From: Elusimicrobiota bacterium
GTDB lineage: Bacteria; Elusimicrobiota; Elusimicrobia; 2-02-FULL-39-32
Direction of reading: 5' to 3'
NCBI GenBank assembly: GCA_016180425.1
Contig: JACPBF010000006.1
Span: 1 to 64,000 of the forward strand
Length of the DNA stretch: 64,000 nt
This document shows, in pieces, positions 1,751 through 59,927 of the stretch (the stretch's first letter is position 1; every line of letters begins with the position of its first letter). Below the pieces are notes generated by a model. It saw nothing but the letters and a program-made list of their open reading frames with translations. It was not told the origin of the DNA and did no database searches. The position numbers and the translations under genes are program-made.

Positions 1751-1799
1751 AATCAAAAACTAAACAACGCTCTTGACGCGCTAGAGTCAGAAAGACAGC

Positions 1800-2014
1800 T
1801 TTAAACCCGTATTTTGCATTAGGCGTTAGGACTGAGACGAATGATGGCGAGACTTTTTCGACGAAAAAAGTGAGAGCGTAGCGTTGCCTACGGTCGAACT
1901 TTTTCGACGAAAAAAGTGAGAGCGTAGCGTTGCCTACGGTCGAACTTTTTGAGGACAAAAAAGTCCGCCATCATTCGTCGAATCCAACGTCCTAATGCAA
2001 AATACGGGTTTAAA
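1800..2014. repeat. Fold-back repeat element, family A copy 1 (with duplicated 46-bp core)
   Basis: The terminal arms TTTAAACCCGTATTTTGC + ATTAGG (from 1800) and CCTAATGC + AAAATACGGGTTTAAA (to 2014) are perfectly complementary over 24 bp. An inner pair, GACGAATGATGGCG near 1838 and CGCCATCATTCGTC near 1967, is perfect over 14 bp. Between them lies a 46-bp unit in tandem (1852-1897 and 1898-1943, then a partial third), itself containing ACTTTTT/AAAAAAGT hairpins. A second copy lies at 59014-59178. The right end of this copy supplies the TAA stop codon of the kinase gene at 2010. No coding sequence or transposase is present, so this is MITE-like or a structured intergenic element. Confidence 0.85.
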
Positions 2015-3749
2015 TCTTAACTTTAAATTCCGTGCCTTTGCCTAAAACGCTTTTTAAAGAAATAGAGGCTTTATGGGCTTCAATAATTCCATGGACAATG
2101 GCTAATCCTAAACCAGTGCCTTTAACTTTTGTGCTAAAAAGAGGTTCAAAAATTCGCTTTTGATCCTCTTCTTTAATGCCCATCCCTGTATCGCGCACAA
2201 ACACGCATACCTCCTGATTTCCTTCCAAAGAAGTTTCTATTTCCAGAGTACCTTCAGTAGGCATCGCTTCCACAGCGTTGTTAATTAAATTAATAAAAAC
2301 CTGGCGCATTCTTTCTTGATCCACAAAAACAGCCGGCAAACTTTGAGCAAATTTTGTCTTTAAATTTACATGCGCGGGAATAGAGACCACGGTAAAGACA
2401 GAATCTAAAATAGTTTGAATGGAAATGGGTGCTGGATTCATTCTCATGACTCTGGAAAATTCCAGAAGATCATTGGAAATCTTTACAGTAGCATTAATCT
2501 CATTGTCCACTATGTCCATCATCTTTTGAACCTGTTCATTGTCTTTTGGCAACGGATTCTTTTTTAAACAAGAACGCACGTAATAAATCGCGTTCTTAAT
2601 GGCTGCTAAAGGATTTCTTAATTCATGCCCAACACCAGAAGCAAGCTGGCCAATGGCTGCCAAGCGCTCTGTGCGCACTAGTTTATCTTGAGCCTCTTTT
2701 AGCTGGGCCATCATGGCGTTAAAAGTATAGGCTAGAAAACCAATTTCATCTTTGGAATCAATTTCCACTCTAGTTTCAGATTCTCCTTTGGCAATGCGGT
2801 CTATCACATCTCTTAAATGTTTTAAAGGAGAAATTAATTTTTGGCTAAAAATATAGGAAAGAGCGATCGCTAACAACAAGGCAAAAAAACCTAAAAGCAT
2901 AATATATTTTTGCGTCCGCTTTTGTAGAAGGATCACTTTTTCTTTGGATAAAAGAATGGCTAAATAAAGATCCCCCACATCTGGTTTTAATTTGGCAAAA
3001 GTGCCCACATAAGTGGAATTCTTCAAGAAAAGTTCTGGAAAAACTTTCTCTTTGTTTTGCAGCAAGTCCCAATCTTTATCACTTAAACTTCTTATGACTG
3101 AAACTAAAGAATTTTTATTTTCTAAAGTGGAGGCATAAATCTCTTTTTTTGAGAAGATAAGGAACTCGCCGTCAATCACAGATTGCAGCTCTTTAAAAAA
3201 ATTGTCATCCAAATAAAAACCCATAAGGATCATGGCTGGAAGGGTTCCCCCCACATCTCCAGGCAAAATAGTCGCAATTTGAATGGAAAGACCTTGGATT
3301 CTTTTTTCTATGCCAACTGTGGAAAGAGATCTTTTCTCCCCATAATTTAAAAGGATCTTTTGAATAAAATGAGAGTCCAGCCTGCTCAATCCTATTTCCC
3401 CTTGATTTTCACTATAAATTACTCTTCCAAAACCATCCAATACCTCCACAATATCTAAATTTAATCCTTTTTTAATGGACTGGCTGACATTGGCAAGAAT
3501 CGTTCTATTCCCATTGCGCACAGCTAAAGGAAGCACTGGGTTGCTGATCGCAAGAAATCCATAAGAAAAAATAGGATCAATTTTATTTTGCACTAAATTG
3601 TTAGTTTGGGTAAGAATTTTAAGCGCGTTATTTTCTAACTCTGACTGAAGGAGACGGGAGGTGATGCGAGTGGTCATAAATGTAACCACTAATAAAGGCA
3701 AAACAACACAAAAGGCGACTAAAAGAACCAGTTTAACCTTAAGCGACAT
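2010..3749 (-). CDS. Membrane sensor histidine kinase (periplasmic sensor-HAMP-HisKA-HATPase)
   Basis: A 579-residue sensor kinase. A membrane segment at about residues 7-27 and a second at about 280-300 (LLGFFALLLAIALSYIF) flank a roughly 250-residue extracytoplasmic sensor region of Cache-like size. HAMP follows at about 300-355. The phosphoacceptor histidine is in GVGHELRNPLAAI, near residue 374. The ATPase domain has an N-box (FINLINNAVEAMP), G1 (VRDTGMGI) and G2 (GTGLGLAIVHG). It starts 10 bp after the small sorting-domain gene (3760) and may be transcribed with the envelope genes upstream. No dedicated response regulator is adjacent; the NtrC-type regulator at 11767 is the nearest on the same strand. 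The stop codon lies in the arm of the fold-back repeat, so the extreme C-terminus may have been altered by its insertion. Confidence 0.93.
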   Translation of the reverse strand: MSLKVKLVLLVAFCVVLPLLVVTFMTTRITSRLLQSELENNALKILTQTNNLVQNKIDPIFSYGFLAISNPVLPLAVRNGNRTILANVSQSIKKGLNLDIVEVLDGFGRVIYSENQGEIGLSRLDSHFIQKILLNYGEKRSLSTVGIEKRIQGLSIQIATILPGDVGGTLPAMILMGFYLDDNFFKELQSVIDGEFLIFSKKEIYASTLENKNSLVSVIRSLSDKDWDLLQNKEKVFPELFLKNSTYVGTFAKLKPDVGDLYLAILLSKEKVILLQKRTQKYIMLLGFFALLLAIALSYIFSQKLISPLKHLRDVIDRIAKGESETRVEIDSKDEIGFLAYTFNAMMAQLKEAQDKLVRTERLAAIGQLASGVGHELRNPLAAIKNAIYYVRSCLKKNPLPKDNEQVQKMMDIVDNEINATVKISNDLLEFSRVMRMNPAPISIQTILDSVFTVVSIPAHVNLKTKFAQSLPAVFVDQERMRQVFINLINNAVEAMPTEGTLEIETSLEGNQEVCVFVRDTGMGIKEEDQKRIFEPLFSTKVKGTGLGLAIVHGIIEAHKASISLKSVLGKGTEFKVKI

Positions 3750-35597: not shown

Positions 35598-35636
35598 ATA
35601 AGATAAATTTTACTAGAAAGTTCTAAACTTTTCTTG

Positions 35637-35671
35637 AACTTTTTGTAACATTTTTGTAACATTTTTGTAAC
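35637..35671. promoter_or_regulatory. Conserved 25-bp box, copy 2, with three TGTAAC repeats at 11-bp spacing
   Basis: TGTAAC occurs at 35644-35649, 35655-35660 and 35666-35671, exactly 11 bp apart, in the 82-bp gap between the giant gene and the OmpR-family regulator. One-turn spaced direct repeats are the classical binding pattern of that regulator family. The array ends 8 bp before the regulator ATG and starts 39 bp before the giant gene, so one site could control both. Confidence 0.65.
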
Positions 35672-43306: not shown

Positions 43307-43360
43307 AAAAATTTTAACCAAAACAATCAATCTTAAAGGCTCTGTTCAAAATACCAGATC

Positions 43361-43440
43361 TGTTATAAAAATAGGCAATAAGTCATTACTATTGCGTATT
43401 TTCATGCTTCAGAGCGCGCGCCAGCTCATGACAACTAATG
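43361..43440 (+). repeat. 80-bp dispersed repeat, family B copy 1
   Basis: Begins TGTTATAAAAATAGG and ends CATGACAACTAATG. It aligns without gaps to 49521-49600 with about 11 differences in 80, and loosely to 59191-59280 in reverse. It lies between tRNA-Arg and the pgi stop codon. Confidence 0.75.
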
Positions 43441-43454
43441 CGGTTCGCATCTTT

Positions 43455-49494: not shown

Positions 49495-49520
49495 TATAGA
49501 ACGTTACTAATGGCGTGTCC

Positions 49521-49600
49521 TGTTATGAAAATAAGCAATAAGTCGTTTATATTGCGTATTTCCATGCTTCAGGATGTGCGCCAGCACATGACAACTAATG
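49521..49600 (+). repeat. 80-bp dispersed repeat, family B copy 2
   Basis: Same length and ends as 43361-43440. Here ATGTGC and GCACAT around GCCA form a clean hairpin; in copy 1 the stem is partly lost. It lies between the transglutaminase-like and citrate synthase genes. Confidence 0.75.
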
Positions 49601-49666
49601 CTCTTTTACAGTGATGATCATTAAGAAAAAATTGTAAAGTCATCCCTTAAGACTTTACATAAGAGA

Positions 49667-53677: not shown

Positions 53678-53740
53678 TTTTGAAAAACTATTCCTCTCTT
53701 GATGTGTAATGGTATTTAAAAACTTGCTGACTAAGTCTTA

Positions 53741-53772
53741 AACTTTTTATAAAATTTTTGTAACATTGTTAC
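53741..53772. promoter_or_regulatory. Conserved 25-bp box, copy 3, directly before the MntA-like start codon
   Basis: Starts AACTTTTTATAA and has TGTAAC at 53759-53764; only two mismatches to the copy at 35637. An inverted TGTTAC follows (53767-53772), giving GTAACATTGTTAC, nearly palindromic, and it ends at the start codon. Unlike the other copies the distance to the start codon is minimal. Confidence 0.5.
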
Positions 53773-57271: not shown

Positions 57272-59248
57272 TTATTCCCCTTCTTCTTTAAATCTTTTTG
57301 CGTGAAGACGAAGCAGACTGGAACACATTTCAGCCTGCACAAACTTTTTTTGGTCTGATCCAAAATAAGATAATAATTTAGGATATTCTTGGGCTCCTCC
57401 TAACTCGCCCAGATAACGCATCGCCATGGCCTTACTGACCCAATCCTCCTCATCCAAAGAACGAATAAGAAAATCTTTCCCTAAAAGATCCCCCATTCTT
57501 AAAATCGCTCCTGCGGCAAAAACTCGCACAAAAGGGGAAGTGTCTAATTTTGTAACCCCTACAAGAATAGAAATTGCTTCCTCATAACCCCAAATTTCCA
57601 TGGCCTCTACCGCCGCAAAACGATCTGCCGCATGCTCGCTCCTTAAAGCGTTTTGAAAAAGACCCAGGTGACTTCTATCCTTAGAATAGGCTAATGCGAT
57701 CAAGGCAAAAGAACGCACATCTGGATTTTTCCCTTCTCGGACAATCCGGGCTAACTCATTTTTTAATTGAAAATCTTTTGTGCCTGCAAGCCCTTCTGTT
57801 AAAAGAAATCCTAATACTGTATATCGGGCTTTTAAACGAATGCCGTTTGGGGTCACAAGCTCATTTAAATCCCTATAGGCAGTGGACTGGTCAATCATTT
57901 CTTGAGTGACTCTAAAGTCCTCTTTTTCCTGCACAATTTTTAAAAGTTGAAAATTAATTCTTGAATCCACCAATTCTGTCTGGGGAATCCTTAAGCGGGG
58001 AGCTGTAACAATCAAAGGGTCTAGCTCAAAATAAGTTCTTTTTTTTAAGAGCGGCTCTTTCTTTGCCTGCGGCTCATTTTGAGGAGGAACAACTAATCCT
58101 TTTTTCTTTTTTTTCTCCAGAGCTTTCCTTTCCCGCTCAAGCTTTTCTTTTTCTATCTTTTGAGGAAAAAGTTTTAAAGCAGCAATGGAAATCTCTGTAA
58201 TCACAAACTCATTGGGAGTTGCAGTCTGTTCCCGATTTAGTTGATCCAGCAAAAGATCATAATCTTCTTCTGTGCCAACCTCTCCTATAAACTTAGCGGA
58301 AAAGGTTCTGATCAGCCAATCTCTATCCTCTAAATTTTCACGCAAAAACTTTATTCCTCTAGGATCACCCAAAAGAGCTAAACTGCCTTGCGCAAAAATT
58401 CGTATTAATTTAGATTCATCCCTATTTGAGATCTCTTGTAAAAGCTCGATGGATTCCTGAAGGTTCCACTTAACTAAAGCTTCAACCGTGGCAAAACGGA
58501 TGCCGATATTTCTAGACCAAAGCGCTTCCTTAAAATAAACTAAATCATTTTTATCCTTTAAGGAAGCCAGGGCTATTAGAGCGATGGAACGCACGTTCGG
58601 AGAATGATCCCAGCGAGCCACTGTGGTTAAACGCTGTTTTAAATTCTGTTCGCTGATCACGCGAATATGTTTAACCTCTTCCCATCCTAAGGATTCAGAA
58701 AGTACCACGCCTAAACGGGTATAACGATTTTTTAACTCAAAACCCTGCGGGGTTATAAAAGAATTAATTTCTTTAAGGGTAGGGATTTCTTCTATGTCCT
58801 CTAATTTTCCTAAATTAGGCTCTTCCAACAAATCAATAATCTTCTGAATAATTTGTGGATCCACGCTTTTAAAAACAGGACTGGTGCTAATGGCAGGAGC
58901 AGGCGGCTGATAAATAAAAATCTGCGGCTTCCAACTCTCTTTTTCTACAGTTTCAGCAAATGAAAATGAAGCAAAAAATAAAAGTAAACTACCTAAAAGG
59001 AAAAAAACTGTTTTTAACCTGAATATTGCATTAGGCGTTAGGACCGAGACGAATGAGGGCGAGACTTTTTCGACGAAAAAAGTGAGAGCGTAGCATTGCC
59101 TACGGTCGAACTTTTTGAGGACAAAAAAGTCCGCCATCATTCGTCGAATCCAACGTCCTAATGCAATATTCAGGTTTAACCCGTATTTTGCAATAGTTGT
59201 CATGAGCTGCGCACATCCTGAAGGATGAAAATGAAGAATATAATACAT
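57272..59248 (-). CDS. Secreted HEAT-repeat protein with internal duplication; N-terminus derived from intergenic repeats
   Basis: The frame is 658 codons. Residues 1-78 are encoded inside intergenic repeats (family B, then family A); the body starts with a signal peptide (LKTVFFLLGSLLLFFASFSFA, about 78-98). There is no ATG, GTG or TTG in frame between the repeat and the end of this signal, so translation must begin in the repeat, perhaps at ATG ATG (59135-59140), giving a 36-residue extension. The mature part has two similar modules of about 190 residues (about 145-345 and 460-650): ITPQGFELKNRYTRLGVVLS / VTPNGIRLKARYTVLGFLLT, each with HEAT repeats (NVRSIALIALASLKD; DVRSFALIALAYSKD). A role as a periplasmic scaffold is likely. 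It is in the exbB-tonB region but does not look like a known partner. Confidence 0.83.
   Translation of the reverse strand: MYYILHFHPSGCAQLMTTIAKYGLNLNIALGRWIRRMMADFFVLKKFDRRQCYALTFFVEKVSPSFVSVLTPNAIFRLKTVFFLLGSLLLFFASFSFAETVEKESWKPQIFIYQPPAPAISTSPVFKSVDPQIIQKIIDLLEEPNLGKLEDIEEIPTLKEINSFITPQGFELKNRYTRLGVVLSESLGWEEVKHIRVISEQNLKQRLTTVARWDHSPNVRSIALIALASLKDKNDLVYFKEALWSRNIGIRFATVEALVKWNLQESIELLQEISNRDESKLIRIFAQGSLALLGDPRGIKFLRENLEDRDWLIRTFSAKFIGEVGTEEDYDLLLDQLNREQTATPNEFVITEISIAALKLFPQKIEKEKLERERKALEKKKKKGLVVPPQNEPQAKKEPLLKKRTYFELDPLIVTAPRLRIPQTELVDSRINFQLLKIVQEKEDFRVTQEMIDQSTAYRDLNELVTPNGIRLKARYTVLGFLLTEGLAGTKDFQLKNELARIVREGKNPDVRSFALIALAYSKDRSHLGLFQNALRSEHAADRFAAVEAMEIWGYEEAISILVGVTKLDTSPFVRVFAAGAILRMGDLLGKDFLIRSLDEEDWVSKAMAMRYLGELGGAQEYPKLLSYFGSDQKKFVQAEMCSSLLRLHAKRFKEEGE
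59014..59178. repeat. Fold-back repeat element, family A copy 2
   Basis: TTAACCTGAATATTGCATTAG (left) pairs with its complement at about 59157-59178. The core (one 46-bp unit, not two) is the same as in copy 1, with one base different in the inner GACGAATG arm. The outer arms differ from copy 1 (CCTGAATATTGC against CCCGTATTTTGC) yet remain complementary to each other. It covers the start region of the HEAT gene. Confidence 0.83.
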
Positions 59249-59280
59249 CTTTTGGCTATTTTCATAATAGGACGTTGGCT
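59191..59280 (-). repeat. 80-bp dispersed repeat, family B copy 3 (diverged, reverse)
   Basis: Read in reverse it has TATTATGAAAATAG, CTTCAGGATGTGCGC and CTCATGACAACTATTG, the landmarks of the copies at 43361 and 49521, but is about 10 bp longer and more diverged. It directly abuts the family A element. Confidence 0.6.
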
Positions 59281-59333
59281 TGAACCTGAATATTTCATAA
59301 TGGACTTTGCAAAATCCGGATTTACCTTTTTTT

Positions 59334-59927
59334 TCATTTTGATCTTTGGATCGTCACCTTTTGAAGAATGACTGGGGTTAGCGGTTTATCTCCGGGTCCT
59401 TTTTGCGCATTGCCAATAGCCATCACCACATCTTGCCCATCCACCACTTCCCCAAAAATAGTGTGATGACCATTTAACCAAGGAGTAGGAATATGAGTGA
59501 TAAAAAATTGAGATCCATTGGTTCCAGGTCCGGCATTAGCCATGGCAAGTTTTCCAGGCCGATCAAATGTAATGGTTGGAACAATCTCATCCTGGAATTG
59601 GTATCCTGGCCCGCCAGTGCCATTGCCAATGGGGCAGCCTCCTTGAATCATAAAATTTGGAATAACCCGATGAAAAATTAAACCATCATAAAATCTCTTT
59701 TTTACTTTTTCCCCGCTCTTTGGATCCATCCACTCAATTTTGCCTTCTGCCAAGTCAATAAAATTTTTTACTGTGATTGGAGTTTCTTTTTCAAAAAGCT
59801 TGCAGCTGATTTTTCCCATCGTTGTTTCAAAAATAACCATAAGTTTCTCTCCTTTATTAACTGTTTGGTAACATCCCATTCCTACAAATAAAAAAGTAGT
59901 GATTATACCATAGACTACAAATTTCAT
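59334..59927 (-). CDS. Cyclophilin-type peptidyl-prolyl cis-trans isomerase (lipoprotein)
   Basis: A 197-residue protein with a lipoprotein signal ([15 protein letters not shown], lipobox VGMGC) and a cyclophilin domain: [47 protein letters not shown] and [11 protein letters not shown]. The catalytic Arg (FHRVIP) and the Gln/Phe pair (SQFFIT) are present. It folds periplasmic or envelope proteins. Confidence 0.94.

Follow-up and report, generated by a model that had tools for sequence, protein, structure and literature searches.

Mobile palindromic elements most likely inserted directly behind the ancestral start codon of a HEAT-repeat protein gene in Elusimicrobiota

Introduction

Rickettsia palindromic elements (RPEs) are palindromes of ~105-150 bp that end in inverted repeats and occur both within and between genes, and their open frame is fused in frame to host ORFs, according to the sections of PMC10969869 and PMC2229807 drawn on here; a table of the latter gives their target duplication as '?'. 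In the portion of PMC2759123 available to us, ORF fusion is reported for bacterial MITEs, namely RU-1/ERIC, RU-2 and the 107-bp Correia element, all short, non-autonomous and bounded by inverted repeats, and RU-2 is described as forming N-termini and, in YPO1552, even a portion of a predicted signal sequence. GTAG/CGTC REP palindromes also lie within ORFs, some of them N-terminal, and most of the N-terminal cases are suspected to be extragenic through misannotation (excerpts of PMC3733652).

Here, we describe a HEAT-repeat protein gene with palindromic elements at its start, located in a 64,000-nt window of an Elusimicrobiota genome (G000). The window was compared with Elusimicrobia bacterium RIFCSPLOWO2_02_FULL_39_32 (G001), the only genome of the same genus searched, and with further genomes of the phylum.

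Results

The HEAT gene comprises a signal peptide and a mature part (57272..59041, minus strand) within a 658-codon ORF in the same frame (57272-59248, minus strand). The assignment rests on Pfam matches to HEAT_2 (E 2.7e-33) and HEAT (E 1.8e-8), 95% amino acid identity to the G001 orthologue and the dN/dS value given below. On one side lie ExbB/ExbD/TonB genes, and on the other, upstream, is a gene for a cyclophilin-type peptidyl-prolyl isomerase (59334..59927, minus strand; Pfam Pro_isomerase, E 4.2e-44), which is also the neighbor in G001. Both flanks of the locus are syntenic with G001.

Upstream of the signal peptide (RLKTVFFLLGSLLLFFASFSFA-ET, assigned by eye), the HEAT frame contains no stop as far as 59353. 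As the initial annotation had observed, the signal peptide directly follows the arm of a family A repeat, and between the end of that arm (59018) and the signal peptide there is no ATG, GTG or TTG in frame. The only such codons further upstream are ATGs at 59248, 59203, 59140 and 59137. One way around this arrangement is a rare start just before the signal peptide, such as ATA 59026 in the A arm, which would give a signal peptide of normal length, or one of several in-frame ATT codons. Starts other than ATG, GTG and TTG are rare, however; ATA 59026 is paired in the A hairpin, and the four in-frame ATGs make such a start unnecessary, so we consider it very unlikely.

Comparison with G001 revealed an ancestral start that the initial annotation had overlooked, upstream of the repeats. 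The G001 orthologue begins at ATGAAAAAAAA, where ATGA overlaps the cyclophilin stop, and reaches the signal peptide core ~29 codons later with no repeat in between. In the window, the same ATGAAAAAAAA overlaps the cyclophilin TGA, with its ATG at 59335..59337 (minus strand), followed by ~307 nt of repeat DNA that leaves the signal peptide >300 nt from the old ATG and out of frame. Other members of the HEAT family show the ATGA overlap (G006 and G007) or an adjacent TAATG (G003). Because the same start occurs without elements in G001 and the relatives start at or near the cyclophilin stop, mobile elements most likely inserted directly behind the ancestral start codon. The repeat-free orthologue thus bears out the earlier suggestion that a repeat had landed at the gene start, whereas an assembly error that removed a normal start does not apply, as nothing is missing and the start is present at 59337, separated from its gene. 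The difference may reflect a gain on the G000 side or a loss in G001, and the n-region of G001 is too diverged for the empty site to be placed to the base. A related concern is that repeat copies were mis-joined at this point, given that the assembly is of metagenome type and that several of its contigs (C21, C37 and C42) end within A copies. Both flanks are nevertheless syntenic with G001 on one contig, and like insertions with clean target duplications occur elsewhere in G000; we regard such an artefact as extremely improbable.

Two insertions can be distinguished behind the old start. The one nearer to the signal peptide, A1 (59018..59174, minus strand), is a palindromic family A copy of 157 nt, open in the HEAT frame and flanked by TTTAA at 59013-59017 and 59175-59179. 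Upstream of it is a second, degenerate A-like element, A2 (59180..59319, minus strand), recognized from tip matches, with one tip at 59180-59196 that matches the tip pattern, an inner arm piece from 59271 and the other tip near 59306-59319; we infer its outer border, where the target duplication is imperfect (TTTAA / ATTTA). Nested in A2 is a 74-nt family B element (59197..59270, plus strand), which on the minus strand carries TCATGA and thereby ATG 59203 and TGA 59202. Other copies of B occur in the window (43360-43441 and 49520-49601) and elsewhere in the genome, and the copy at 49520 is absent from G001. Within A-type arms, B sits after CATTAG or CAATAG, both in L056 and at 59197-59270. The start region has a predicted fold of -136.7 kcal/mol (z -10). 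A start at ATG 59248, the first of the ORF, would place 78 codons ahead of the signal peptide, all of them repeat DNA. The initial annotation derived these codons from two intergenic repeats, a count of codons that assumes the 59248 start; the second repeat is composite, with A-like arms carrying B, and the repeats are not purely intergenic, as other copies lie inside ORFs.

Family A is mobile and MITE-like, being short and multi-copy with terminal inverted repeats and target duplications of 5-6 bp. All seven copies measured are 157 nt long, with terminal tips inverted at both ends, and many copies are scattered genome-wide. A further window copy, expanded inside, lies between genes (1791..2028, no strand assigned; 91-92% matches). 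The copy ends are alike at the HEAT gene, L002 and L004 and slightly unlike in L003, L005 and L006, the tips varying between copies. Base-precise empty sites were found in G001 for three copies: one at a rodA-like gene (C39; duplication TTCTAA, net insertion 163 nt) and two in giant ORFs (C19, duplication TTAAA; C21, duplication TTAAA, net 162 nt). The C21 copy (L006/L099, G000 C21:63177-63343) lies in frame in the middle of a 2,740-codon ORF, whose G001 frame has 2,650 codons without the copy, while the C19 copy (L007/L100, G000 C19:57303-57464) is antisense and splits the giant ORF. Open frames of ~7,000 to 13,472 codons in G001 C16, C10, C24 and others encode very large proteins related to the C21 giant ORF. 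Among the A/B loci compared, no orthologous pair was found in G001.

The element's length also bears on reading frame. An insertion of 157 nt plus a 5-bp duplication amounts to 162 nt, or 54 codons, and therefore keeps the frame. Six of nine copies (HEAT, L002, L004, L005, L006 and L061) have no stop in the frame that begins CCG GAT TTT; of the others, L003 contains a single stop, L007 carries a small insertion and the 1791 copy is expanded. At this length, one stop-free frame of six is unremarkable by chance. Selection on an A-encoded peptide was rejected as an explanation, since the variable columns in the open frame fall 19/7/6 at codon positions 1/2/3, without a third-position excess (six of seven copies counted, L061 left out), and hence give no sign that the added peptide is selected.

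In G000, the tip pattern gave 41 matches and a reversed-pattern control none. No facing tip pair 1-2 kb apart, as expected for an autonomous IS sharing these tips, was found among these 41 matches on 43 contigs, in a search whose pattern could miss diverged ends and in an assembly that breaks at repeats. Across the phylum, the pattern occurs in 30 of 340 genomes, and at least three times in only eight: besides G000, these are G327 (13), G001 and G326 (11 each), G002 (9), G033 (5), G004 (4) and G005 (3). Single matches mean little because the reversed control matches 12 genomes, G000 not among them. At gathering thresholds, Rfam identified one tRNA in the window and nothing else. Short AT-rich repeats of the AACTTTTTGTAACATTTTTG type were also noted at 757-786, 35618-35666 and 53722-53770, with many in G001 too.

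The ancestral start now opens a leader ORF of 45 codons (59200..59337, minus strand), which ends at TGA 59202-59200. Overlapping this stop by 4 nt as ATGA is an ATG in the HEAT frame (59201..59203, minus strand), the proposed present start. We suggest, with middling confidence, that A and B inserted behind the HEAT start, that the old start drives the leader and that translation re-initiates at 59203 and reads through A. The original start, still coupled to cyclophilin through its ATGA, has persisted and would now drive the leader; ribosomes would terminate at TGA 59202-59200, re-initiate at the overlapping ATG and translate A, in its stop-free frame, before reaching the signal peptide. The product would gain a 64-residue, mostly element-encoded n-region (MTTIAKYGLNLNIALGRWIRRMMADFF to NAIFRLK); the peptide encoded from 59203 includes MTTIAKYGLNLNIALGR. 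Cleavage after SFA would then remove all 83 added residues, the n-region presumably being lost. Our preference for re-initiation at 59203 rests on the 4-nt overlap, which is the commonest arrangement and an efficient one, and which the cyclophilin-HEAT pair already had; such an overlap is the favored geometry for translational coupling in the part of PMC10666635 consulted. However, TCATGA is part of the conserved end of B, and the overlap may therefore be coincidence. The initial annotation's proposal that an element supplies the initiation codon is plausible, with four in-frame ATGs within the repeats and 59203 overlapping the leader stop.

Initiation at another of these codons, uncoupled from the leader, is possible but rather doubtful. 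Both the 59140/59137 pair in the A1 arm and 59248 in B are in the HEAT frame, and at an msrB-like gene the same A-arm ATGATG is the first in-frame start; the product of the A-arm start would begin MMADFFVLK. The pair is, however, buried in the strong A hairpin, and to use 59248 a ribosome would have to initiate anew within the leader. In the predicted RNA hairpins, ATG 59203 is paired, as are 59140 and 59137, and by eye no clear ribosome-binding site precedes any of the four ATGs.

Alternatively, the insertion may have silenced the gene, its intact frame merely reflecting recency: the old start is out of frame, its leader stops early, and most G000/G001 substitutions may predate the insertion. 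Against this, the 560 codons of the mature part contain 0 stops and 0 frameshifts, with a dN/dS of 0.119 versus G001, similar to the 0.064-0.220 of six neighboring genes. This is a weak test if the insertion is young, and the ratio argues against old decay, not against very recent loss. In addition, the HEAT frame is open through the element DNA to and past ATG 59248. The mature protein has been under constraint and, judged from these sequence comparisons, the gene looks functional; we consider silencing unlikely and retain re-initiation at 59203 as our preferred reading.

Insertion behind a start codon is not confined to the HEAT gene. Twelve full A copies were listed with their surrounding frames, and three lie within ~20 nt behind an ancestral ATG recognized from G001, at the HEAT, msrB-like (L003) and rodA-like (L005) genes; two are inside giant ORFs and seven elsewhere. 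In the window, 12 of 684 TTTAA/TTAAA sites fall 3-24 nt behind a start codon, and at that rate the chance probability is 0.0014 for 3/13 copies and 0.0006 for 3/10, figures that depend on crude gene calls and a zone picked post hoc, with selection presumably removing most mid-gene insertions. At all three genes the ancestral ATG opens a leader, and an ATG in the displaced frame lies near the leader stop, at -4 nt (HEAT), +3 nt (msrB) and -20 nt (rodA). In the msrB-like gene, it is the A-arm ATGATG 3 nt behind the leader stop; in the rodA-like gene, the restart ATG is the element tip itself, giving MQNTG-SKAPLFF where G001 has MKED-SKAPLFF. Shuffled inserts placed an in-frame ATG at -20..+10 nt of the leader stop in 37/4000 (0.9%), 31/4000 (0.8%) and 73/4000 (1.8%) trials for HEAT, msrB and rodA, respectively, within a window fixed after seeing the cases: rodA lies exactly at -20, and -10..+10 passes only HEAT and msrB. 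As the window is post hoc and the elements are related, the three results are not independent tests.

Two further genes, named by eye, were noted. In a CoaC-like flavoprotein gene (L136, G000 C19:10906; L174 in G001), G001 has ATGAAAAAG and G000 AAGAAAAAG; the G001 start codon is AAG in G000, where an A-type arm provides the first in-frame ATG, two codons past a TAG, and codon 12, a TTG, is the alternative start. The other gene is Nramp-like (L067, G000 C13:62804-62955); the tip of its A-type element reads ATG CAA TAT TCG GGT, and this ATG is the sole common start ahead of a stretch that looks conserved by eye.

We speculate, while judging it improbable, that family A is frame-neutral, prefers landing behind starts and brings its own restart codons (the ATGATG arm and the ATG tip) together with an open exit frame. 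Were this so, termination of the leader followed by re-initiation would immediately rescue a displaced gene, and the transposon would be adapted to translation through it at gene starts, repeatedly making new N-termini.

Lastly, palindromes occur at the same start in relatives. The 29 loci with orthologue matches (L012-L040) yielded 17 with an assigned start for analysis; L028, which has none, and 11 others with partial matches or no upstream sequence were left out. Perfect inverted repeats of at least 12 bp lie in the 180 nt around the HEAT start at 3 of the 17 loci (G003, G004 and G032), with ~0.3 expected at starts from the eight present across 71 kb of other sequence at these loci; the G002 orthologue has an imperfect 18-bp inverted repeat near its start. 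The palindromes in orthologues from four other genera (L015:1417-1444, L019:1649-1713, L027:3115-3179 and L018:3135-3175) sit at the start or in the signal peptide region; one is GTAG-REP-like and in frame, and in the G003 orthologue the signal peptide region contains a palindrome of the GTAG type. Because the relatives' palindromes differ in sequence, the HEAT start has taken up palindromes more than once.

Discussion

The HEAT locus offers a before-and-after case in which mobile palindromes stand behind a start codon, a relative lacks the insert and the gene is not evidently lost. It suggests ATGA-type re-initiation as a testable route to the rescue of a displaced gene and the birth of a new N-terminus. 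In the literature on palindromes and MITEs, as far as our partial view of it extends, no description of family A was found in connection with Elusimicrobia or signal peptides.

By analogy, the closest known kind appears to be the Rickettsia palindromic elements. From the partial accounts used here, and by description, not sequence, family A resembles them in its palindromic structure, inverted ends, stop-free frame and in-frame ORF insertion. It differs in its host, Elusimicrobiota being a different phylum, in its clear target duplication and in the position of three of the twelve full copies just behind start codons. Family A is also like RU-1/ERIC, RU-2 and Correia in being a short, non-autonomous element with inverted repeats; at the HEAT gene, however, the old start is visible and an element-free orthologue is at hand, a comparison absent for those MITEs from the portion of PMC2759123 available. 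REPs, at 20-40 bp, are unlike the 157-nt family A, and unlike the suspected misannotated REPs, the HEAT case comes with a comparison that places the elements behind the ancestral start.
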